33,055 bases of DNA from Bacteroidales bacterium (GTDB taxonomy: Bacteria > Bacteroidota > Bacteroidia > Bacteroidales > F082), in the NCBI GenBank assembly GCA_027011095.1, contig JALVAQ010000126.1, positions 1 through 33,055 of the forward strand, read 5' to 3'. Of this stretch, positions 3 through 15,904 are shown piece after piece. The translations under genes and the position numbers were made by a program. Below the pieces are notes generated by a model that worked only from the letters and a program-made list of their open reading frames with translations, ran no database searches and had not been told where the DNA came from. Numbering within the stretch: position 1 is the stretch's first letter; each line of letters begins with the position of its first letter.

Positions 3-485
3 GTTTGGTTCGAAGATTTTATTCCCAGAAGAGGCAGCTCTTCATCCTGTGTGGTTGAAGGCGTGAAACCCGGCGAAGATGCCCGCCTTACCACCATGTG
101 GTCTATTGTTGGCTGGCCGCTGGCTTCGGTTGCCATTCCCATTTGGATAACCAAACACGATGACCTGCCGGAGGTTGTTACCTACAACGATTCCATAAAA
201 GACTCACCACTTTGCCACAAGGCTTTAACCTTAAAGAAACAAGTTTATTGCTACAACTGGGGTAAAAGCGCCAAACATTACATCAATGTTAATGCGCTAC
301 TCAACGCCAACGGTACCGGAATCGTTCAAAAGCTAAAACCTTTGGATGACAGTCTTATCGCGCAAGGCCACAGATTGTTAAACGAGTTGCGCCGGAAAGG
401 TTACGATTCAAAAAAAATTAAAGCCTTTTACGAGGGTGCCGACAAACAAATTCTGATAACCTACAACCAACTGTTTGGCTTGTAA
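3..485 (+). CDS. C-terminal part of a C45 / carcinine hydrolase / isopenicillin-N acyltransferase-like Ntn hydrolase (5' end outside window)
   Basis: Frame is open from base 3 (VWFEDFIPRRGSSSSCVVEGVKPGEDARLTTMWSIVGWPLASVAIPIWI...); the 'SSSCVVEGVKPGE..LTTMW..VG.PL.SVA.P.W' block resembles this family. Stop at 483-485. Confidence 0.65.
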   Translation, partial: VWFEDFIPRRGSSSSCVVEGVKPGEDARLTTMWSIVGWPLASVAIPIWITKHDDLPEVVTYNDSIKDSPLCHKALTLKKQVYCYNWGKSAKHYINVNALLNANGTGIVQKLKPLDDSLIAQGHRLLNELRRKGYDSKKIKAFYEGADKQILITYNQLFGL

Positions 486-581
486 GTTTTGTTTTTTTAA
501 CGGTTGAGGTTGTTGTTTTATTTAACTTGATATTTACTTTTGCCAAAAGAAAGATAGTAAAAAACAATTGTCGCAATGAAC

Positions 582-618
582 GTAGTCGAAGTGTGCTGAT
601 TAGTCATACTTCGACTAC
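582..618. repeat. Inverted repeat (REP-like), arms GTAGTCGAAGT / ACTTCGACTAC
   Basis: Perfect 11-nt arms at 582-592 and 608-618 with a 15-nt loop in an intergenic region. Confidence 0.7.
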
Positions 619-710
619 GCTCAGCATGACAACGAAGTACTGCTTTCAATAAAGTATTAAAAAGAACATATAAATATAAATTAACTTCAAGGAAAAAAAA
701 ATAAGCATAT

Positions 711-1835
711 ATGAAAACAAAATACTTTTTTACGGTTTTACTGGCTGTATTAATAGCAACGGTTGCTTTTGGCCAACGCCGTTCAGGAAAAAAGATTCAG
801 GTAGGTGTTTTTGATGGCAACGGAGCAAGCCCTGTTTGTGTTGTCGAAACCATGGAAGCCCTTAAAATTGACAAAGGAATTTATCCCCATAAAATATCGG
901 CTGTTGATATTATGAACGGTGCACTCGACAAATTGGATGTACTTATTTTTCCGGGTGGCAGTGCCAGTAAGGAGTACAACAACCTGGGGTTGAAAGCGGC
1001 TGAAAAGGTAAAAGCCTTTGCCGAAAAAAAACACAAAGGACTGGTTGGCATTTGCGCCGGAGGATACCTGTTTTCAACCACACCGGGTTACCCAAGTCTG
1101 GAACTGTTTCCTGCACCCGATATTCGCGACCATTACGACCGCGGCAGAGCATTAATAGGTTTTAAAATAAACAAAGCCGGCAAAAAAATATTTCCGGAGC
1201 TTAAAAAAGTGGACACTGCTTTTTACCAGTATTACGATGGCCCCATGTACGACATTCCGGAAGGTGCTCCCATAACCGTATTGGCAACATTAACCAGCGA
1301 TATTTCGCACAAAAAAGGATACCCTAAAAATGTAACACCCGGCAAACCCGCTTTTTTTACCGCCGACTACGGAGAGGGCAAAATTATTGCTTCGGTAGGC
1401 CATCCGGAAGCTACACCAGGCATGCGATGGATAGTACCAAGAATGGCTCGATACGTTGCCGGTAAACGCTTGGTGGGTTACAAAAAAAATGTGGTCAGGC
1501 CGCAAATTTATTCAAAGGAAGAGTTTTATACACCCGATGTAATTGCCTTTGAAAAAGAGAATTTTTGGAAACTCTTCTCAAAAAATGATGACGAGGTTAT
1601 TAAAGCCATCGACAATTTGCACTCCATTTATTCAAGGCCATCCATTCGCTGGTCTATTGGATTGCTACGTCACACATCGCCTAAAGTACGTCAGTATGCA
1701 GCGCAATATTTGCTGGAAACCGAATATACAGCAGCGCTACCCGATATAAGAGCAGCCTATCTGTCAGAAAAGGATGAGGCTACCAAAGCCGTACTTAAAA
1801 AAGTGCTCAACGGGTTAAACGGGCTTAGTCAATAA
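711..1835 (+). CDS. Secreted BPL_N / class I glutamine amidotransferase-like protein with C-terminal helical (HEAT-like) region
   Basis: Signal peptide MKTKYFFTVLLAVLIATVAFGQ; IQVGVFDGNGASP..., DVLIFPGGSASKEYNNLG, GLVGICAGGYL nucleophile-elbow-like motif; C-term 'SPKVRQYAAQYLLETEYTAALPDIRAAY' is repeat-like. Confidence 0.7.
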   Translation: MKTKYFFTVLLAVLIATVAFGQRRSGKKIQVGVFDGNGASPVCVVETMEALKIDKGIYPHKISAVDIMNGALDKLDVLIFPGGSASKEYNNLGLKAAEKVKAFAEKKHKGLVGICAGGYLFSTTPGYPSLELFPAPDIRDHYDRGRALIGFKINKAGKKIFPELKKVDTAFYQYYDGPMYDIPEGAPITVLATLTSDISHKKGYPKNVTPGKPAFFTADYGEGKIIASVGHPEATPGMRWIVPRMARYVAGKRLVGYKKNVVRPQIYSKEEFYTPDVIAFEKENFWKLFSKNDDEVIKAIDNLHSIYSRPSIRWSIGLLRHTSPKVRQYAAQYLLETEYTAALPDIRAAYLSEKDEATKAVLKKVLNGLNGLSQ

Positions 1836-2396
1836 TTAAAAATAATCGGGGTTTTTTGCATGTAAGTCCCTTACAAACCTGAGGGCTTTTCCCATGTGGT
1901 TTTCGATGGTTTTAACCGAAAGTTCCAAAGTGGAAGCAATCTCTTTATAGCTCATGCCATCTACCTTATGCAGTCTGAATATCAATCCTGTTTTTAATGG
2001 CATGGCGTCAATTGCAGTGCCAACAGCCTTTCTTAAATCCTGCCGAACCATTAAGGTTTCGGGTGTTACCTCCATTTTCAGATAATTTTCATGGTTTGAA
2101 ATGTCGCTAAACTCAGGCTTGTTTTTACGTAAATAGGAAATAACGGCATTGCGTACACTTCGATATAAATAGGCTTTTACATAAGTTACTTTGGTGTGTT
2201 TTTCACGGTTTTGCCAGATTCTGATAAAAACATCCGACACCAGCTCTTCGGAGTGATTAACCGATTTAAGCATTAAAAACGAAAAATTACAAAGCGGCTC
2301 ATAATAACGATCGAAAAGAACTTCCAGAGCATGGACATTCCCCTTTCGTATCTGTTCCATCAATTGTAAATCGCTAATATGTTCTTTTTCTGCCAA
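1836..2396 (-). CDS. ECF-type RNA polymerase sigma-70 factor (Bacteroidetes family)
   Basis: Region 2 'ALEVLFDRYYEPLCNFSFLMLKSVNHSEELVSDVFIRIWQNR' and region 4 'MSYKEIASTLELSVKTIENHMGKAL'. Confidence 0.93.
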   Translation of the reverse strand: MAEKEHISDLQLMEQIRKGNVHALEVLFDRYYEPLCNFSFLMLKSVNHSEELVSDVFIRIWQNREKHTKVTYVKAYLYRSVRNAVISYLRKNKPEFSDISNHENYLKMEVTPETLMVRQDLRKAVGTAIDAMPLKTGLIFRLHKVDGMSYKEIASTLELSVKTIENHMGKALRFVRDLHAKNPDYF

Positions 2397-2578
2397 AAAT
2401 CCTATCTGTTTACAGTGTTAGCAAAAATAGCTTTTTTAAGCTAATGATAAAAACCGGAAAAACGAGTTTGAAAACCGATTGTCCGAATTGTTGGAAATTG
2501 ATTATTCAAACAAACACCAAAAGCTTAGGGCATTCATAAAAAAGCTGATTAAAAAACCACAAGTCTCTCCTAACGTTC

Positions 2579-2755
2579 CTGTACTATTTAGAAGTACCCT
2601 CTGACAACAACGGGTCTGAAAGAGCCATAAAAAATGCAAAAGTGAAAATGAAAATCTCCAATCAGTTCAAGTCAATAGATTTCGCCAATCAGTATGCTGT
2701 TCTCTGGTCTGTCATAGACACAAGCCTTAAAAAAACTCACAAAAAAATTCGTTAA
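2579..2755 (+). pseudogene. C-terminal remnant of IS66-family transposase
   Basis: Frame translates LYYLEVPSDNNGSERAIKNAKVKMKISNQFKSIDFANQYAVLWSVIDTSLKKTHKKIR*; the DNNGSERAI(R/K)N..VK.K.S.QFKS block is typical of IS66 transposase C-termini. No intact upstream ORF. Confidence 0.8.
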
Positions 2756-2759
2756 ATCC

Positions 2760-2793
2760 GTGTAATTCGTTGGTCTTTGTCAACGAATTACAC
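2760..2793. repeat. Inverted repeat, 13-nt perfect arms GTGTAATTCGTTG / CAACGAATTACAC
   Basis: Arms at 2760-2772 and 2781-2793, 8-nt loop, immediately after the transposase remnant stop. Confidence 0.8.
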
Positions 2794-2919
2794 AAATTAC
2801 ACGAAATCTATCATGCCTGCCTTAATAGATTTCATATTATTGCAATGGAATATCAAATAGTATAAAAGCATTAATAAGTTGCTGGTTTGATTTGCATAAT
2901 ATTATTCCAACAGCTCCTT

Positions 2920-2946
2920 CTCCGATAGTTATCGTAGCTATCGGAG
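2920..2946. repeat. Inverted repeat CTCCGATAG / CTATCGGAG
   Basis: Perfect 9-nt arms with 9-nt loop. Confidence 0.7.
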
Positions 2947-2999
2947 GAATAAAGAGTTAACTATAAACAACTTCAATAAAAGTACCCATTCCATTTATA

Positions 3000-3184
3000 A
3001 AACCACTGAGTGGTTTAATATGAATAACCATCGGTGAAACCGGTGGTTAAAACGATACAAACATTAAAGAACCCTGGAAGGGTTCAATAACATTTGTTTA
3101 ATCCCTTCAGAATTATAATTTATTTAACTACCTATTTCCCGGCACTTCTTACAGGGAAATCCATATTAAATCCTTTCAGGATTT
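3000..3184. repeat. Cluster of short hairpins with different stem sequences
   Basis: AAACCACT-G-AGTGGTTT (3000-3016); AACCATCGGT-GAA-ACCGGTGGTT (3026-3048, one T:G wobble); GAACCCT-GGA-AGGGTTC (3069-3085); ATTTCCC-n13-GGGAAAT (3134-3160); AAATCCT-TTC-AGGATTT (3168-3184). Confidence 0.75.
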
Positions 3185-3263
3185 TGCCCTTAGATATTAC
3201 AAACAATTTGATATACCTTACAAGCAAAAAAGCGACACGTACCTCATAAAACAAGTTAATTCG

Positions 3264-3725
3264 CTAATGGTTTTTCATTAAAAAATTCTTTTCTCCGATT
3301 ATAATGTCAATAATCAGCGTAGTATCGGAGGTTACTAAAAATGAAATTTTTTTATAGGCCGGCGGACCGAATGTGCCGGTTTTGTTGTTTGAAAACCCAA
3401 ACGGTTCAACAGGAATTTTCATGCTGCCTCTATAATCCAACGAATCGTTGCCATTCAAATCCTGAAACAATGCAATGGCATAATAATTATTAACAGGCAA
3501 CTTAAAAGATACGGTAGCCCGATTGTCCGAAATATTTTTAACAGCGGTTTTAAAAGGAACACTGTTATTATAGTTTTCTTTACCATTGAAAACAGCAACA
3601 TGCGCTTTTCCAACGGATTGCGCTATACTGTCAATTACTACATTTACAGTTGCTTCCGTTTGTGCAAACGCAGAAGGTGTCGATAGCAGCATCAAAAAAA
3701 CAGCCGTAAAAAAAACTCTGTTCAT
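3264..3725 (-). CDS. Secreted DUF2141 family protein
   Basis: From MNRVFFTAVFLMLLSTPSAFAQ (signal peptide); 'VGKAHVAVFNGKENY..', 'YAIALFQDLNGNDSLD', 'PVEPFGFSNN' typical of DUF2141. The ORF-track start at 3758 overlaps the upstream NUDIX gene; the internal Met at 3725 is more plausible. Confidence 0.8.
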   Translation of the reverse strand: MNRVFFTAVFLMLLSTPSAFAQTEATVNVVIDSIAQSVGKAHVAVFNGKENYNNSVPFKTAVKNISDNRATVSFKLPVNNYYAIALFQDLNGNDSLDYRGSMKIPVEPFGFSNNKTGTFGPPAYKKISFLVTSDTTLIIDIIIGEKNFLMKNH

Positions 3726-3729
3726 TTTT

Positions 3730-4377
3730 TTATTTTTTTGCCAGTTCCAGCAACTCATTAATCATCATGGCCGTGGCACCCCAAAGTATTTCGCCGTCAA
3801 CAATAAAACAGGGTACCTCCAATGCCGTAACATATTTTGTAGTTACTTTTCTTATTTGCTTTGCATCGGGTTTCATCAACTCCCATAGGGCAACGGTTAT
3901 TACTTTTTTCACCTCCTCATTGGGTTTAAAAGCCGGTTTTTCATCAACATATCCCACAAAGGGAATAACATTAAAATTGGAGGGCGAAATATAAACCGGG
4001 GTAAGTTTCCCCAAAATATGAACCCGACTGATGTCGATACCCAACTCTTCCCGGGTTTCGCGCAATGCGGTGGCTGCATCACTTTTGTCGTATGGTTCTG
4101 CCTGTCCTCCCGGAAATGAAATTTGGCCGCTGTGAACCGAATGATTAGTGGCTCGTTTCATAAGCACCAACATGGTTTCACCCTTTTCGGGATACAGCAG
4201 CGCCAAAACAGCACTGTTTTTCGGCGGAATATCGTTGTTATTATATACCAACTGTTCAACGCGTGTTACCGGTGCCATTTGATATTGAATATTAAACCCC
4301 GGCAAAGGTTTGCGCAGGTTTTCAGCGAGGCTTTTAATAAAATCGGAAAATATTAAACCCATTAAATTGTGTGTCAA
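3730..4377 (-). CDS. NUDIX hydrolase, CoA pyrophosphatase (NudL)-like
   Basis: Nudix box GQAEPYDKSDAATALRETREELGI preceded by ISFPGG. Confidence 0.88.
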   Translation of the reverse strand: MTHNLMGLIFSDFIKSLAENLRKPLPGFNIQYQMAPVTRVEQLVYNNNDIPPKNSAVLALLYPEKGETMLVLMKRATNHSVHSGQISFPGGQAEPYDKSDAATALRETREELGIDISRVHILGKLTPVYISPSNFNVIPFVGYVDEKPAFKPNEEVKKVITVALWELMKPDAKQIRKVTTKYVTALEVPCFIVDGEILWGATAMMINELLELAKK

Positions 4378-4454
4378 TATAAAAATGTTTTCAAAAGTAA
4401 GTATATTACCAAAAAGAAATGTAACTTTGGATTCGATTTTAAAAAAATTATACC

Positions 4455-4730
4455 GTGTCAGTTCAAGAGAAAAAATTTCCGGATATTAAAGAAATTACAC
4501 AAGATGAGGATGTTAAAAAGCTTATTTTGTGGAATGATGATGTAAATTCGTTTGACTTTGTTATCGAAAGCCTTGTTGAAGTTTGCGGACACGACTATAT
4601 GCAGGCCGAAACCTGTGCCCTTATCGCTCATTTTAAAGGCAAATGCCCTGTAAAAAGCGGCTCGTTTGATGAACTTAAACCCATCTACACCGAAATGACC
4701 AATCGTAAATTAACTGTGGAGATTAACTGA
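4455..4730 (+). CDS. clpS: ATP-dependent Clp protease adaptor ClpS (GTG start)
   Basis: KLILWNDDVNSFDFVIESLVEVCGHDYMQAETCALIAHFKGKCPVKSGSFDELKPIYTEM matches the ClpS core. Confidence 0.9.
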   Translation: MSVQEKKFPDIKEITQDEDVKKLILWNDDVNSFDFVIESLVEVCGHDYMQAETCALIAHFKGKCPVKSGSFDELKPIYTEMTNRKLTVEIN

Positions 4731-4731
4731 T

Positions 4732-5199
4732 ATGTTGTGGCTTGTAATTGTATTAATTGTTGTGGGTATTGCATTGCTGCTGCTCGAAGTGTTGGTAATT
4801 CCCGGTACCGGGTTTGCGGGCATAGCGGGGTTTGGTGCCATTGTAGCCGGAGTTTGGGTTGCTTATGCTCATCTTGGAACCTCGTCGGGTAACATTGTGC
4901 TATTGGTTACCATTGCCGTTAACGTAATCGCTATCTGGCTGGGCGTCAGATCGAAAACATGGAAAAAAGCAGCGCTTGTTTCAACCATCGATGGCAAGGT
5001 AAACACCATGGAGCGAGCAGGCTTAAAAGTGGGCGATGTGGGAAAAACCATTTCAAGATGCGCTCCCATGGGCAAGGCTGAATTCAACGGTAATTTTGTG
5101 GAAGTTGATGCCCGTACCGACTTTATCGACCCCAACACCGACATTGAAATTATTAAAATTGATAACAATAAAATTTATATTAAATCTTTAAAACAATAA
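4732..5199 (+). CDS. NfeD-family membrane protein (short NfeD)
   Basis: IVLIVVGIALLLLEVLVIPGTGFAGIAGFGAIVAG... TM segments plus C-terminal OB-like domain; adjacent to floA. Confidence 0.88.
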   Translation: MLWLVIVLIVVGIALLLLEVLVIPGTGFAGIAGFGAIVAGVWVAYAHLGTSSGNIVLLVTIAVNVIAIWLGVRSKTWKKAALVSTIDGKVNTMERAGLKVGDVGKTISRCAPMGKAEFNGNFVEVDARTDFIDPNTDIEIIKIDNNKIYIKSLKQ

Positions 5200-5202
5200 A
5201 TT

Positions 5203-6195
5203 ATGGATACAAATGCCTATTTAATAATTGCCATGGGTATAGGAGCACTTTTTCTTATCTGGGTGCTTTTTTACTTCATCCCTGTAGGGCTGTGGTTTAA
5301 TGCATTGGTAAACGATGTGCGAATTTCGCTGGTACAGCTGATTATTATGCGATGGCGTAAAGTTCCGCCAAGCCTTATTGTAAACAGCATGATTACGGCA
5401 GCCAAGGCGGGTATTAACCTCGACCGTGGAAACCTCGAAGCGCATTACCTTGCAGGAGGCCATGTGCAACAGGTGGTTAATGCATTAATTTCATCCGATA
5501 AAGCCAATATGTCGCTGGATTTTAAAACTGCCACCGCCATCGACCTTGCCGGTCGTGATGTGTTGGAGGCCGTTCAAATGTCGGTTAACCCAAAGGTGAT
5601 TGACACCAAAAAAGTGGCCGCTGTGGCCAAAGATGGTATCCAGCTTATTGCTATGGCACGGGTTACCGTACGAGCCAACATAAAACAGTTGGTTGGAGGT
5701 GCCGGAGAAGAAACCGTTCTGGCGCGTGTTGGTGAAGGTATTGTATCTTCCATCGGATCGGCAAAATCGCACAAAGCGGTACTTGAAAATCCCGACAGTA
5801 TTTCAAAAGTGGTATTGGAAAAAGGCCTCGACTCGGGAACCGCCTTCGAGATACTTTCCATTGACATTGCTGACATTGATATTGGTAAAAACATTGGTGC
5901 TGTGCTGCAAATGGATCAGGCCAACGCCGATAAAAACATTGCACAGGCAAAGGCCGAAGAGCGCAGGGCAATGGCTGTTGCCCATGAGCAGGAGATGAAA
6001 GCCAAAGCCCAGGAAGCCCGCGCCAACGTTATTCAGGCCGAAGCTCAAATTCCCATGGCCATCGCCGAAGCATTTAGAAGTGGTAACCTCGGCATTATGG
6101 ATTATCAAAAATACCGAAACATACAGGCAGATACGCGCATGCGCGATTCCATAGCCAAAGACCCTAATATTGAAGGAAGCAGAGAGAACAAATAA
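5203..6195 (+). CDS. floA: Flotillin-like protein FloA
   Basis: [49 protein letters not shown]..., [43 protein letters not shown]. Confidence 0.93.
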
Positions 6196-9542: not shown

Positions 9543-11950
9543 AAAAATTTATTATAATTCTGCTTGCCATCATGTTAGGTGCAGCAACCGGACATGCTCA
9601 AAAATTTACCATTACCGGATTTGTTAATGATGCTTCCAACGGCGAAAAGCTATTGGGTGCCAACGTTTATAACAAACAAACCTATGCGGGATGTGTAACC
9701 AACAACTACGGATTTTACAGCCTCACCCAGCCAAAAGGCATGGTTACGGTGGTTTACTCCTTTGTGGGATATCAGCCTCTTAACCTCACTTTTAACCTAA
9801 CTGCCGACACGGTTATTAATGTGGAGCTAAAACCTACCATTGAGCTGGAAGAGGTTGAAGTTAAAGCCAATGGCATTGAGCACCACCTCGAAAGCTCACA
9901 AATGAGCATTACCGAGCTTCCATTGAAAACCCTTAAAAAATTACCCGTATTTTTTGGCGAGGTCGATATTATGAAAACCATTCAGCTGTTGCCAGGCGTA
10001 CAATCGGGAACCGAAGGCACCAGTGGTATTTACGTGCGTGGCGGCGGCCCCGACGAAAACCTTATTTTGCTGGATGGCGTTCCGGTATATAACGCCAACC
10101 ATCTGTTCGGTTTCTTTTCGGTGTTTAATGCCGATGCCCTCAATTCGGTAACACTGGTAAAAGGAGGTTTTCCGGCAAGGTATGGCGGCAGGCTCTCCTC
10201 GGTGCTCGACATCAGAATGAAAGAGGGTAACAGCAAAGCCTTTAAGGTGCAGGGAACCGTAGGGTTTATTGCTTCAAAAATTACCCTCGAAGGGCCTGTG
10301 GTAAAAAATAAATCGTCGTTTATTGTTTCGGCACGACGAACCTATATCGATATCTTATCGTACCCCTTACAACTTATTGCCAACAAAATGGCAGGCAACA
10401 GCGATAACTTTTTTGGCGGCTATTATTTTTACGATTTAAACGGGAAAATAAACTGGCGGTTTTCCGAAAAAAGCCGCATTTACCTGAGTGCTTATATGGG
10501 AAACGATAAGGCATACGCCAATAGCAAATACGAATCGGCTGATTATAAAACCAAAGATAATTTTAAACTAAGATGGGGAAATATTACCACTGCCTTACGA
10601 TGGAATTATGTGTTCAATAAAAAACTCTTTGCCAATTTCAGAGGCTCCTACAGCCGGTATAATTTTTTGGTTGGTGAAAAAAGCGATAACACAACACCTG
10701 ATTATCACGAAAAACTGGCCTTTGATTATTTTTCGGGAATTGATGATTTGGCTGCCGCCGCCGATTTTGATTTTGTGCCCACCACAAATCAATATATCCG
10801 CTTTGGAGTCAGCAACATTTATCACACCTTTAATCCCGGTGTAAATGCCTATTCGTTTAGCAATCAGGAGGGGTCGGAAAATGCATCGGTTGACACAACC
10901 TTTGGAAACAATAAAATTTATGCCAACGAAATTGACGCGTATGTTGAAGATGACTTCTCCCTGGGCAGTTATGTTAAAATGAATCTCGGTTTGCATGCTT
11001 CAGGCTTTTATGTAAAAAATACCTTTTATAAATCGTTGCAGCCCCGTGCGGCGTTGCGGGTAATTGCTTCTAAAAAACTGTCGCTTAAGGCTTCGTATGC
11101 AACCATGGCGCAGTATGTGCATTTGTTAACCAATACTTCAATTGGCCTGCCCACCGATTTGTGGGTTCCGGTAACCGATACCATCAAGCCCATGAAATCG
11201 CAACAGGTGGCGTTGGGTGGCGTGTATAACCTGAACGATATGTTTGAAATAAGCCTCGAAGGATATTATAAGTGGCTTGAAGATGTTATTTCGTACAAAC
11301 CCGGTGCATCGTACCTAACATCGGACAACAACTGGCAGGAGATGATTACGGTTGGAAATGGATGGAGCTATGGTGCCGAACTTTTAATACGAAAAGATAT
11401 GGGTAAATTAACCGGATGGATAGGATACACCCTGTCGTGGTCGTGGCGTAAGTTTGAAGAGGTTAGCCCCGATAAATTCCCCTATCACTACGACAGGCGG
11501 CACGACCTTTCAATTGTTGCCACTTACAAGCTTAGCGACAAAATCGACTTTGGTGCCACCTGGGTGTTTGGAACCGGTGCCGCCATTACCCTGCCGTACG
11601 ATAAATACATTACCATTGATAACAGCGCAGGAGGCTATGCAGGCGTAGGAGGCCCGGGTGGCATGCAACCCTATTATGAGTATGTTGATAATGTGGAGGA
11701 GCGCAACAACTACCGCACGCCAAGCTATCACCGCCTCGACCTCGGGGTTAATTTCCATAAAAAGAAAAAATGGGGCGAACGCACCTGGAGCGTAGGGCTG
11801 TACAATGCCTATTTTCGCCAAAATTACTTCTTTATTTTTGTGGATTACGATTACGACCATTACAACGGAACCGGCAAACCCCAAAAGGTGTTAAAACAGG
11901 TAAGCCTTTTCCCCGGCATGCCCTATGTTTCGTATAGTTTTAAGTTTTAA
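9539..11950 (+). CDS. TonB-dependent receptor with N-terminal carboxypeptidase-regulatory-like domain
   Basis: FTITGFVNDASNGEKLLGANVYNKQTYAGCVTNNYGFYSL; plug 'GVQSGTEGTSGIYVRGGGPDENLILLDGVPVYNANHLFGFFSVFNADALNSVTLVKGGFPARYGGRLSSVLDI'; C-term barrel ending in F. Confidence 0.95.
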   Translation: MKKFIIILLAIMLGAATGHAQKFTITGFVNDASNGEKLLGANVYNKQTYAGCVTNNYGFYSLTQPKGMVTVVYSFVGYQPLNLTFNLTADTVINVELKPTIELEEVEVKANGIEHHLESSQMSITELPLKTLKKLPVFFGEVDIMKTIQLLPGVQSGTEGTSGIYVRGGGPDENLILLDGVPVYNANHLFGFFSVFNADALNSVTLVKGGFPARYGGRLSSVLDIRMKEGNSKAFKVQGTVGFIASKITLEGPVVKNKSSFIVSARRTYIDILSYPLQLIANKMAGNSDNFFGGYYFYDLNGKINWRFSEKSRIYLSAYMGNDKAYANSKYESADYKTKDNFKLRWGNITTALRWNYVFNKKLFANFRGSYSRYNFLVGEKSDNTTPDYHEKLAFDYFSGIDDLAAAADFDFVPTTNQYIRFGVSNIYHTFNPGVNAYSFSNQEGSENASVDTTFGNNKIYANEIDAYVEDDFSLGSYVKMNLGLHASGFYVKNTFYKSLQPRAALRVIASKKLSLKASYATMAQYVHLLTNTSIGLPTDLWVPVTDTIKPMKSQQVALGGVYNLNDMFEISLEGYYKWLEDVISYKPGASYLTSDNNWQEMITVGNGWSYGAELLIRKDMGKLTGWIGYTLSWSWRKFEEVSPDKFPYHYDRRHDLSIVATYKLSDKIDFGATWVFGTGAAITLPYDKYITIDNSAGGYAGVGGPGGMQPYYEYVDNVEERNNYRTPSYHRLDLGVNFHKKKKWGERTWSVGLYNAYFRQNYFFIFVDYDYDHYNGTGKPQKVLKQVSLFPGMPYVSYSFKF

Positions 11951-11975
11951 CCGGTAAACCAAACAACAAAGCCGC

Positions 11976-12074
11976 TAATTTGCGAGGGGCGTAATCCCCG
12001 AAGTCCGCCCGGATGAATATCCCTGCCCGTCCGGTCAGGCAGGCATTCGGACGGGCAATCTTAGACAATGAACG
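11976..12074. repeat. Dispersed repeat unit: TAATTTGCGAGGGGCGTAATCCCCGAAG ... GCCCGTCCG/CGGACGGGC hairpin ... AATCTTAGACAATGAACG
   Basis: Motifs recur at 12723-12769 and partly at 15740-15838; contains a perfect 9-nt inverted repeat at 12025-12033/12048-12056. Confidence 0.8.
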
Positions 12075-12101
12075 TTTATTGCTTAAATCATCACCCATCA
12101 A

Positions 12102-12578
12102 TCATCTCCTACTCTCATCAAACACCTTCAACACTTTCAACACCGTTCCAACATTCCGTTTTATTGTTTTATCCTCCGATTGTGCCATCTGTTTCAGGTT
12201 GTTTTGGCAGAATGGCGACAGCTTTAAATCCCAAAGCAGCACCATGGCCGAGAGGCGAAGATACTCGTTTTTTTCTTTGGTGCTGCGCAGGTTTACCGGC
12301 TCGGTGTTGAGGTAGTCGCGGATTTTTTGTTGGCTTTCGGCAATGTATTTTCCCGATACGGTTACCGGCTTGTTATCCATGCGCAACTGTACGAGGTTGC
12401 GAGGCAGCATCAACGGCAGCAGCCGGGCATCGAGGTGCTGTTGAGGGTTGATGATTGTGTAAATGATTTTTCCGTTTTCAAACTTTGCATCGGCGTAAGG
12501 TGTAAGCCAACCGGAGGGCTTTGTTTGCGACAGAGCCAACAAAGGCAAAAAGAGAAAGAGGAGTATTGTTTTTTTCAT
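12102..12578 (-). CDS. Small secreted protein of unknown function (158 aa)
   Basis: Signal peptide MKKTILLFLFLPLLALSQ; C-terminal half duplicated at 15520-15692. Confidence 0.75.
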   Translation of the reverse strand: MKKTILLFLFLPLLALSQTKPSGWLTPYADAKFENGKIIYTIINPQQHLDARLLPLMLPRNLVQLRMDNKPVTVSGKYIAESQQKIRDYLNTEPVNLRSTKEKNEYLRLSAMVLLWDLKLSPFCQNNLKQMAQSEDKTIKRNVGTVLKVLKVFDESRR

Positions 12579-12624
12579 GGTTTTGTTTTTTGATTCATTG
12601 TTTCAATTCATTTTACAGGGTGTG

Positions 12625-12769
12625 TTGTTTAAGATTGCTTCGCTTCGCTCGCAAATTACAGGCTTCGGATGGTTTTTTTGTAGTCGTATCGGTTTTCCCC
12701 GGAAACTATATAACAGAGCACGTAATTTGCGAGGGGCGCAAGCCCCGAAGCAATCTTAAACAATGAACG
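12625..12769. repeat. MITE/REP-like element with imperfect terminal inverted repeats
   Basis: Left arm TTGTTTAAGATTGCTTCGcttCGCTCGCAAATTAC (12625-12659) is the reverse complement, with an internal bulge, of right arm GTAATTTGCGAGGGGCGCAAGCCCCGAAGCAATCTTAAACAATG. Confidence 0.75.
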
Positions 12770-12851
12770 CTTATTTTTGTTAAGTTATTAATTTTCAATA
12801 TTCAACACGCAATAATCAATTTTCAGGTTTGTTTGTTTCGAGCTCTTGTAC

Positions 12852-12893
12852 TTGCTCATTGCTCGTTGAACATTGCTTATTGCTTATTTACTC
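12852..12893. repeat. 7-bp degenerate tandem repeat (TTGCTYA) overlapping the 3' end of the T9SS gene
   Basis: TTGCTCA TTGCTCG TTGAACA TTGCTTA TTGCTTA TTTACTC in register. Confidence 0.65.
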
Positions 12894-14482
12894 CTTTCAA
12901 GAACAAACGCCCTCTTCCCCAGCACCTTTTTCCCGTTGCTTACCACCGCCACGTACAGCCCCGGTGAAAAGCCGTTAACAGACAATTGTGCCTCTTTCTG
13001 TCCGGTGGCAATGGGCTTTTTCACCATTGGCCTGCCCGATATATCGTACACGGTAAGCTGCATGTTGCTGTGGTATTGGGTGTATTTCAGCTTAAAATGC
13101 ACCATGTTGCCGTTTACGGGATTGGGGTAAGCCGTGAGATCCACCTTTTGTTTGGCAGCATAGTAGGCGGCGGGCGAAGGAAACTCCGGCGTGCTTACAA
13201 TTACTCCGCAATCGGTTACATAAATGGTATCCGATGCTATGGGCAGGTTATCGCACAAACTGTCGTAGTTATAAGATGCCGTATCAATGGGCACGCTGTT
13301 TAAATCGGCATTAAATTTATAGAGTACGATGTTCCAATTGTTGTCGTTGGAGTTGTAGGCCAGATAGTACTGGTTGCTAATGGTATCTTTTTCAAGCGGA
13401 TACAAGCCGCTACTCATTGTAGCATTTGGGTGCGACTGGTGGTTGAATACATTGCACATGGTATCTATAATCATTTCTCCTGTAGGATTTTCTCCGGCGC
13501 CCTGATTACCATACTTTACAGAAGCAAAATAGGTGGTATCATCACGAATGGCAAGGTCAAGGAAAAAGTTATCGGTTACTGTGGGGTCTATACTACTGTT
13601 TTCAAGTATGTAGTATGTGGTCTCATTTCCGGCAGTATCGAAATTCATAAGCAGTGAATTTGCAATGGGATATCTTTTGTCGCCCCAACCGTGTAAAATT
13701 CCATTTTCATAGGAAATTACACCAATTGTTGTTCCGATTATAGTATCTGTGGTGCTGCTGTCGGTTACTCCGTAAGGTAAAAGCCATTCTTCGTAAAAAT
13801 TCGTATCGGTCTTTATATACATTGGTTTTAAAAAGCCAAGGTTGGGTTTATCAGGATGTGCATAATAACCAAATCCCGACAGGATAATAAATCCGTCAAA
13901 TTCATTCATGCCGAAATCAATTATCATACTCAAAAGCAGCGGATATTTTTGCAGCATGTTAAAGGGGTGAAACCAAAGAAAATTACCGGCGGTATCGAAA
14001 GATAAAAGGCCAATATCATAGTCGGAATTACCGCTAACCACTCCTGTACTGGCTACAATGTTGCCGTCGGAAGTAAAAATAGCGTTGTTAAAATAGGTTT
14101 CATAATAGTTGTACGGGTCAACAAACTCACGGCACCACAGCAGGTTACCACAGGCATCAAGATAAACCAGCGATGCTTTGTAATCGGTTTCTCCGTAAAT
14201 CATCATTTCACCGGATGCATTTTGTTTTATGCCATTCGGGCTTACCGGATTATCATAAAACAGATGCTTTTGCCATAATATATCACCGTTTCTGTCAAGT
14301 TTAAAAATAGAAGTATTGTTATGGATACTTTCTCGTACCGAAATTAATTGACCATAATCGTACGAAATAGTATTTTGAAGTGAAACATATTCTTCTCCGC
14401 TTATCTCATTTTCCCACCTTTGCTGCCCTACGGACAGCAAAGGAAGAAAAAGTAATAACACTACATAAATTCTGACACGCAT
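12884..14482 (-). CDS. Secreted protein with T9SS type A C-terminal sorting domain
   Basis: Signal peptide MRVRIYVVLLLFLPLLSVGQ; C-term 'LTAYPNPVNGNMVHFKLKY...LTVYDISGRPMVKKPIATGQKEAQLSVNGFSPGLYVAVVSNGKKVLGKRAFVLE'. Confidence 0.88.
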   Translation of the reverse strand: MRVRIYVVLLLFLPLLSVGQQRWENEISGEEYVSLQNTISYDYGQLISVRESIHNNTSIFKLDRNGDILWQKHLFYDNPVSPNGIKQNASGEMMIYGETDYKASLVYLDACGNLLWCREFVDPYNYYETYFNNAIFTSDGNIVASTGVVSGNSDYDIGLLSFDTAGNFLWFHPFNMLQKYPLLLSMIIDFGMNEFDGFIILSGFGYYAHPDKPNLGFLKPMYIKTDTNFYEEWLLPYGVTDSSTTDTIIGTTIGVISYENGILHGWGDKRYPIANSLLMNFDTAGNETTYYILENSSIDPTVTDNFFLDLAIRDDTTYFASVKYGNQGAGENPTGEMIIDTMCNVFNHQSHPNATMSSGLYPLEKDTISNQYYLAYNSNDNNWNIVLYKFNADLNSVPIDTASYNYDSLCDNLPIASDTIYVTDCGVIVSTPEFPSPAAYYAAKQKVDLTAYPNPVNGNMVHFKLKYTQYHSNMQLTVYDISGRPMVKKPIATGQKEAQLSVNGFSPGLYVAVVSNGKKVLGKRAFVLERSK

Positions 14483-14485
14483 GGT

Positions 14486-15514
14486 TTAATATTTTACAAA
14501 TTTTGCACTTTGCAAGGTGTTGCCCGAATCCGACAGCCGTATCAGATATGTACCCGGGGTATAGTCGCGTAGGTCTATTATTTTAACGCCTTGTTTTTTA
14601 AACAATCGGAAAGTGTTAATGTGCATGCCTGTAAGGGTATAAATTTCAATAACCGGATTTACAGTTTTATAATCAACCTTATACTCAAATGTAAGGTATT
14701 GTTTGGCGGGGTTGGGATAGAGCGTAAAGTATTGATCCGCTATGTTAGAAGTATTGCCTAAACCACCTTTTACTTTTGCCGTTTTGTTTTGTGTGGTATC
14801 GGGAAAAATGTAGGGCTCGTTGTAAACAATGTCGCCCGTTTTTATAAGAATGTTGCGAGCAAGAGCCTGTACCAATCCACCGGAGTTTTGCACAATGTTG
14901 TACAGCGTAGCCTTTTGTGTACTGTCAATATCGGTTATGTTTTTGCCTTCCGATTGCAAGGTAAGCAAAACACCGAAATAATCTTCGTAAGCGGAATGAA
15001 TACCGGTTTCATAACTGCTTAAATCGAAAACGGAGGTTACGTCCGAAAGCTTGTTTATCACACCTGTACTATCTCCATTGTTGTATCTTGCAAAGGCCTG
15101 TAAATAATAGGATTCGGGAGTTTGCACCCGGGCAAGCGCAGATTCAATACTGTCGTAAACGGCAGTAATTGTCGTATCGCTCATATTCAACCGTACCAAA
15201 TCGTTAACATTTTGTTGTTTGCGTGATGCATAATAGGCTTTTTTAGATTCCAGCGCTTCTTTTTCGCCCAGTACGGTGTCGTTGGCATGTATTTGCGCCA
15301 TTTGATTATCGTTAGGTGGGGTAGTGCGTTCGTTCAGTTTGTTTAACACATTTTCCGCTTTGGCCGACTGCGGGTTCTCGGCCAAAATTTCGGTAACAAT
15401 GCTGTTGGGCAGCACATCCTCCTTTTCGGCTGCGTTTACCATTACCGTGTCGCTGAGGTAGGGTGAAGCACTGAGCAACTGGCTGCGTAGTTGCATAGTT
15501 TCGGGGGGCATCAT
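14486..15514 (-). CDS. T9SS sorting-domain protein, probably a 5'-truncated fragment of a larger surface protein
   Basis: C-term 'YFTLYPNPAKQYLTFEYKVDYKTVNPVIEIYTLTGMHINTFRLFKKQGVKIIDLRDYTPGTYLIRLSDSGNTLQSAKFVKY'; N-term MMPPETMQLRSQLLSASPYLSDTVM... has no signal peptide. Confidence 0.7.
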   Translation of the reverse strand: MMPPETMQLRSQLLSASPYLSDTVMVNAAEKEDVLPNSIVTEILAENPQSAKAENVLNKLNERTTPPNDNQMAQIHANDTVLGEKEALESKKAYYASRKQQNVNDLVRLNMSDTTITAVYDSIESALARVQTPESYYLQAFARYNNGDSTGVINKLSDVTSVFDLSSYETGIHSAYEDYFGVLLTLQSEGKNITDIDSTQKATLYNIVQNSGGLVQALARNILIKTGDIVYNEPYIFPDTTQNKTAKVKGGLGNTSNIADQYFTLYPNPAKQYLTFEYKVDYKTVNPVIEIYTLTGMHINTFRLFKKQGVKIIDLRDYTPGTYLIRLSDSGNTLQSAKFVKY

Positions 15515-15519
15515 CTTAT

Positions 15520-15692
15520 TTATTTTCTGTTTTCATCAAATATTTTTAATACTGACAGCACCGTTCCAACATTTTGTTTTATCTCTTTATCCTCCGACTG
15601 CACCATCTGTTTCAGGTTGTTTTGGCAGAACGGCGACAGTTTTAAATCCCAAAGCAGCACCATGGCTGAGAGGCGAAGATACTCGTTTTTTT
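15520..15692 (-). pseudogene. Truncated duplicate of the 3' part of the 12102-12578 gene
   Basis: Reverse strand reads KNEYLRLSAMVLLWDLKLSPFCQNNLKQMVQSEDKEIKQNVGTVLSVLKIFDENRK*, versus KNEYLRLSAMVLLWDLKLSPFCQNNLKQMAQSEDKTIKRNVGTVLKVLKVFDESRR* in the intact copy; homology stops abruptly upstream with no start codon. Confidence 0.88.
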
Positions 15693-15745
15693 GTTTGTTT
15701 TCAATTTTTATTTGAGAGTGTATTGTTGAAGATTGCCAGTCCGGT

Positions 15746-15812
15746 CAGGCGGGCCTACCCGAGTGCATCATTCAGGCGGGCCTGCCCGAGTGCATCGTTC
15801 AGACGGGCGTTC
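15746..15812. repeat. 27-bp tandem repeat, about 2.5 copies
   Basis: CAGGCGGGCCTACCCGAGTGCATCATT / CAGGCGGGCCTGCCCGAGTGCATCGTT / CAGACGGGCGTTC. Confidence 0.85.
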
Positions 15813-15904
15813 GGACGGGCAATCTTAAACAATGAACGCCTATGCCTTCTCAAACAAACAATGTTAAGCTATTGTAAATAGTTAAAATAAGTCGAATTGT
15901 TGTG

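Follow-up and report, generated by a model that had tools for sequence, protein, structure and literature searches.

How does a surface-protein locus come to begin with the end of one of its own genes? The question is raised by the window, a stretch of 33,055 nucleotides from a metagenome-assembled Bacteroidales genome (G000), where the tail of a short gene is followed by a T9SS fragment, an intact T9SS protein gene and, last, a complete copy of the gene whose tail stands in front. A relative with the same locus allows the duplication, trimming and mosaicism of this surface-protein cassette from an uncultured Bacteroidales to be documented, and the answer assembled here rests on gene order, on synteny and on the forms that the cassette takes in other genomes.

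Results

Gene order and a partial second copy of C

Read on the minus strand, the genes follow in the order C', A', 3 nt, B, about 300 nt and C (Table 1); the same order had been proposed in an earlier note made from the sequence, and the open reading frame coordinates bear it out. Comparison of the window with itself at the nucleotide level reveals a direct repeat of 176 nt, 12104–12279 and 15522–15697, with 86% identity, and in a protein search of the own genome, residues 100–158 of the 158-aa protein C recur at 85% identity (E 2.3e-28). The second, partial copy of the 158-aa gene claimed by the earlier note is thereby confirmed, and the search found no third copy in the 3.7-Mb genome, just C and C'. 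As C and C' lie in direct orientation, a DNA inversion was set aside. From AAAAAAAC on, the 5' half of C' is missing.

Table 1. Features of the region in window coordinates
Feature	Position	Strand	Basis
C', 3' remnant of a second copy of C (last 55–58 codons and stop)	15520–15697	-	86% nucleotide identity to 12104–12279
A', 342-aa T9SS ORF, C-terminal stub of surface protein A	14486–15514	-	homologue alignment, Por_Secre_tail
B, 532-aa T9SS protein with signal sequence	12884–14482	-	Por_Secre_tail
C, intact 158-aa protein with signal sequence	12102–12578	-	ORF, hydrophobic N-terminus
Junction of C' stop codon (TAA) and A' codon 1, TAAATAAGATGATGCCC	15509–15522	-	sequence
Dispersed repeat element, inverted ends ATTGTTTAAGATTGC / GCAATCTTMAACAAT	15722–15848		adjoins C' upstream
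Dispersed repeat element, second copy (B–C spacer)	12624–12764		sequence comparison
Further copy of the dispersed intergenic element	11946–12084		sequence comparison

Both A' and B score above the Pfam cut-off for Por_Secre_tail and the NCBIfam cut-off for TIGR04183. By inspection, a hydrophobic signal sequence is present at the N-terminus of B and C and absent from A', whose N-terminus, MMPPETMQLRSQLLSASPYLSD, has no hydrophobic stretch and thus lacks the Sec signal peptide of T9SS cargo; the description of the pair as a signal-less T9SS fragment and an intact T9SS protein holds. C has no match in Pfam or NCBIfam. Its structure model consists of a small beta part and four helices, for which a fold search returned nothing at E <= 0.001, with weak armadillo/HEAT-like matches only, and a search of solved structures gave only noise.

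A' is the C-terminal fifth of a large protein

In relatives, A is a protein of approximately 1,650–1,690 aa, and the alignment of homologues makes A' its last ~342 residues, the C-terminal fifth; the 5' part that the earlier note took to be missing from the T9SS fragment is thus found in other genomes. A' aligns to residues 1316–1655 of the 1,656-aa A of relative G005 at 76.6% identity and to the C-terminus of A in G002, the closest relative in the comparison, at 77%, and its counterparts elsewhere are residues 1347–1687 (G043), 1350–1689 (G038), 1312–1653 (G052) and 1311–1651 (G039). The A of G005 has a signal sequence, a sorting domain above the Pfam cut-off and weak BNR/propeller-type repeats below it; a search of solved structures with full A found nothing. 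The model of A' (mean pLDDT 80.7) has an all-helical domain at about residues 1–230, a low-confidence linker and a T9SS sorting beta-sandwich at 260–342, so the stub keeps two whole domains. In the fold search, the tail resembled the CTDs of mirolase and FspA; all matches were to sorting-domain or Ig-like folds, with nothing firm for the helical domain.

The N-terminal part of A is absent from the rest of the window's genome in a search of that assembly (completeness ~95%), and with 342 aa the A of the window is without the long N-terminal part that marks a full-length A of the A-B(-C) family. Lacking a signal peptide at the N-terminus, A' is presumably not delivered to the T9SS, and judging from its sequence it is most likely a by-product that is not exported. 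On the other hand, the A' branch carries 14 synonymous and 12 nonsynonymous substitutions against 18 and 12 on the G002 branch, with no excess of amino-acid changes; this lack of any sign of relaxed constraint points to a recent truncation or to a stub that is still translated or used. Its translation is perhaps coupled to that of B, whose start sits just behind. In a tree of A C-termini, A' had no firm placement, and an old orthologous lineage of short A genes is compatible with the tree but not supported by it.

The same locus in the closest relative

G002 is an uncultured Bacteroidales MAG (record WGDP01) in which the locus is spread over two contigs: contig C321 holds RNase R and then residues 7–1191 of A, and contig C41 holds residues 1146–1655 of A, followed by B, C and a TonB-type gene. 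The contig ends overlap by exactly 151 nt, which identifies them as neighbours, and G002 therefore bears, at the locus of the window, a full-length A with a signal sequence and without C' in front. Window and G002 match at 93.8% identity up to 15851, where the match breaks, and it resumes at 15511, the start of A'; between these points the window has the repeat element and C' where G002 has the promoter region of A and its first ~1,314 codons. At the position corresponding to the C'/A' junction of the window, the A genes of G002 and G005 read GTAACCAGCATGCC. The earlier note held that relatives conserving exactly this short form would speak against its reading. Because A is full length at this locus in G002, the nearest relative, the short form of the window is lineage-specific, although signal-less stubs do recur elsewhere, with different junctions.

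No informative empty site is found in G003, G004, G083 and G005, where the TonB and RNase R genes either sit on separate contigs among other neighbours or are placed at the end of a contig. On contig C176 of G004 (176–5204), A is split in two frames with in-frame stops (residues 5–1018 and 1014–1655), reflecting either a pseudogene or an assembly frameshift.

Cassettes, tandems and stubs in relatives

Complete cassettes in the order A-B-C, as predicted, are found in five relatives (G002, G005, G038, G043 and G052). In addition, three genomes hold tandems with a shortened A: G043 reads A-B-C-A''(141 aa)-B-C, with A'' beginning 3 nt past the C stop; G001 reads A-B-A'(342 aa)-B, with A' beginning at the stop of B (TAATG); and G037 reads A-B-A'(91 aa)-B-C. 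Cassette copies outside the window, whose absence from every relative the earlier note considered damaging, are thus plentiful. The C-A'' joint of G043 is found also in G060, and in G014 an A' stands directly behind the end of another sorting domain.

When only cases are counted in which at least 0.9 kb of upstream sequence holds no further N-terminus of A, signal-less A fragments with B downstream occur at ten loci, spread over nine genomes and including that of the window. Their starts form two clusters, one near the start of A' (window, G001, G053, G014 and G023) and another near residue 200 (G043, G060, G083 and G020), and their lengths are 90–349 aa with one of 561. At nearly every locus with enough downstream sequence, a B-like gene comes next after an A-type C-terminus, as it does in the window, where the C-terminal domain of A is followed 3 nt later by a B-type T9SS gene; C is present in 14 of the 173 genomes of the lineage's family. 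As B follows A nearly everywhere and independently of C, A and B form a general pair, to which C is added in a minority of genomes.

Elsewhere in G043, the minus strand of contig C48 (1–12264) carries another array, in which the arrangement B-x-B-x-B comes after a 2,145-aa A-type gene. Here x stands for a protein of 163 aa whose N-terminus is signal-like and whose sorting domain is of the A type, and the array is a clear tandem amplification of B.

The truncation of C' and the dispersed element

The break of synteny with G002 at 15851 coincides with the outer edge of the dispersed element at 15722–15848, a copy that holds a 27-bp tandem repeat (15745–15798) and is related to pieces at some 20 places in the genome. 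The earlier note saw homology between the C copies stop abruptly; coding homology does end, at AAAAAAACGAG, but likeness to the upstream region of C resumes upstream of C'. Matching element ends precede both C' and C, followed by a short flank, ACACYCT...AATTGAAA, which is missing at the two other exact copies of the element end in the genome; by itself, the match of this flank has a p of about 0.02. This is suggestive of C' being a C whose 5' half was deleted internally, rather than a copy that simply ends there. The joint falls within an A-run, CAAAAAAAC versus GAAAAAAAC, which is what a deletion between short direct repeats would leave.

Over 55 codons, 14.5 synonymous and 9.5 nonsynonymous changes separate C from C' (dS 0.61, dN 0.077), and the ratio of 0.13 indicates that protein-level constraint acted on both copies through most of their existence. 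C' probably lost its 5' half later than most of the divergence, and it is now most likely a pseudogene and not functional. A clear parallel is provided by G083, where a partial copy of C at an unrelated locus (contig C239, 3424–3696), which shares 94% identity with the genome's intact C, is joined between two 10-bp GGCAAAAATC repeats, one in the B-C spacer and the other inside C, a duplicated C having lost its 5' half by deletion between these repeats.

On the minus strand at 15683–15704, the putative deletion scar of C' puts TTG, 20 nt and TATCTTCG ahead of A'-B. The Bacteroidota promoter reads TTTG-N17-23-TAnnTTTG, and the loose resemblance of the scar to it could be chance.

A recombined block

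Identity to G002 is 86–93% over 15511–14850, 48–78% over approximately 14811–13400 and again 84–97% over 13333–12930. Correspondingly, dS is 0.42 for A' codons 1–215, 2.13 for the first 360 codons of B and 0.26 for its last ~150 codons, compared with 0.19–0.42 in the flanking genes. The sorting domain of A and most of B have thus been exchanged as a block in one lineage. As the window resembles G005 fairly evenly across the block, the exchange most likely took place in the G002 lineage; in the protein tree, the B of the window groups with that of G005, of another genus (98/98), and not with that of G002.

Discussion

In our judgement, the region is probably the remnant of a tandem A-B-C array of surface-protein genes, shaped by a partial tandem duplication and subsequent deletions. 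The ancestral cassette would have been RNase R, A (~1,650 aa, with a signal sequence), B, C and TonB, as in G002. In the duplication, the right copy would start inside A, at the start of the conserved C-terminal helical domain, and the left copy would end just past the stop of C, producing A-B-C1-[A'-B-C2]; the joint would place an ATG before the A fragment, so that A' would be an open frame lacking a signal peptide. Subsequently, A and B1 would have been lost by deletion together with the 5' half of C1, in the case of C1 possibly via a slip between short repeats of the AAAAAAC type, leaving C1'-A'-B-C, with B and C probably the remaining working genes.

A duplication whose right copy starts inside A accounts in one step for the joint of a C stop, a few bases and the middle of A, as well as for the fortuitous start codon, and it is matched by the surviving tandems of G043 and G001. 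The earlier note's general reading, a duplication followed by deletion or recombination in a family of T9SS cassettes, gains support from the cassettes and tandems of relatives and from the full-length A of G002. Counting against the model, microhomology at the joint of the tandem duplication amounts to no more than 3 bp, and the intermediate A-B-C1-A'-B-C2 was seen at the window's locus in no genome compared. The dS between C and C', from 35 sites only, exceeds that between G000 and G002 in the flanks; the duplication may therefore predate the split of the two genomes, needing a loss in G002, or involve DNA of another lineage.

Similar remains could be left without any duplication of the whole cassette if a repeat-flanked C was inserted independently upstream of or inside A, the 5' part of A being lost then or later. 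The partial C of G083, with its B-C intergenic sequence and repeat-like edges at an unrelated locus, demonstrates that C can be copied alone, and the same dispersed element precedes both C' and C. However, an insertion leaves unexplained why C' ends exactly at its stop, a few nucleotides before the A fragment and much like the 3-nt joint of the G043 tandem, and we regard this origin as unlikely.

One may also ask whether A'-B-C units are not debris but functional orphan reservoirs that swap B and the A sorting domain with a full-length A via the helical domain, in the manner of orphan cdiA-CT/cdiI modules. Signal-less stubs with B downstream are recurrent, and the block of A C-terminal domain and B body does differ between G000 and G002. 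Furthermore, across seven full-length A proteins, the start of A' falls in a conserved stretch (71% mean identity, G005 residues 1276–1350), preceded by one of 42%. Against this, the genome of the window keeps no full-length A as a recipient, the stubs vary in length, and no strain pair was found in which the orphan and the main gene had actually exchanged sequence, all of which makes a reservoir role highly doubtful. Finally, an assembly artefact or strain chimera, conceivable given the 527 contigs, the 6% contamination, the nearby repeats and a related assembly that breaks inside A, is very improbable as C' differs by 14% from the one other C of the assembly and lies inside a 33-kb contig whose flanks both match G002 in order at ~94%, and the same type of joint is found in the assemblies of G043 and G060.

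The phenomenon is one of ordinary genome dynamics, and the similar stubs in relatives indicate that the family rearranges repeatedly. While the kind of event is familiar, the A-B-C family, the general pairing of A and B and the recurrent headless copies of A are new; A-B is a T9SS gene pair found widely in the lineage, for which the libraries searched have no family name. There is also a caution for annotation: many short ORFs labelled "T9SS type A sorting domain" that have no signal peptide are stubs and not small secreted proteins.

Comparison with known systems

We found no relevant literature on the T9SS with tandem duplication and no description of an A-B-C T9SS family. The nearest resemblance in layout is to orphan cdiA-CT/cdiI and rhs-CT/rhsI modules, in which the gene of a large exported protein is followed by units repeating its C-terminal part and the next gene, with stubs that have no export or translation signals (PMC3150448). 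In cdiA-CT/cdiI arrays, the C-terminal fragments behind the main gene mostly lack translation signals, and recombination after tandem duplication has been suggested (PMC3150448). Unlike in CDI and Rhs, the part repeated here consists of a helical and a T9SS sorting domain, the next gene, B, also encodes a T9SS protein, and what A has lost is N-terminal. As no toxin or immunity family was among the Pfam/NCBIfam matches of A', B and C, we do not class the region as a CDI/Rhs orphan module. We consider it quite unlikely that A'-B-C is the T9SS counterpart of such modules, with headless A fragments in front of alternative B genes serving as homology anchors for switching the partner B of A.

At the level of domains, the T9SS type A sorting domain (TIGR04183 / PF18962) is present above curated cut-offs in A', in full-length A and in B, A' differing from type A cargo in having no N-terminal signal peptide. 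The rearrangements themselves recall Porphyromonas gingivalis, whose surface proteins, including kgp/hagA, undergo domain rearrangement and allelic exchange (PMC5266723, PMC9328147). In both cases, Bacteroidales surface proteins form mosaics via recombination between strains, and deletions between homologous loci give truncated genes (PMC5266723, PMC9328147); the protein families are different, however, and in the searches made A-B-C has only the T9SS sorting domain in common with known proteins.
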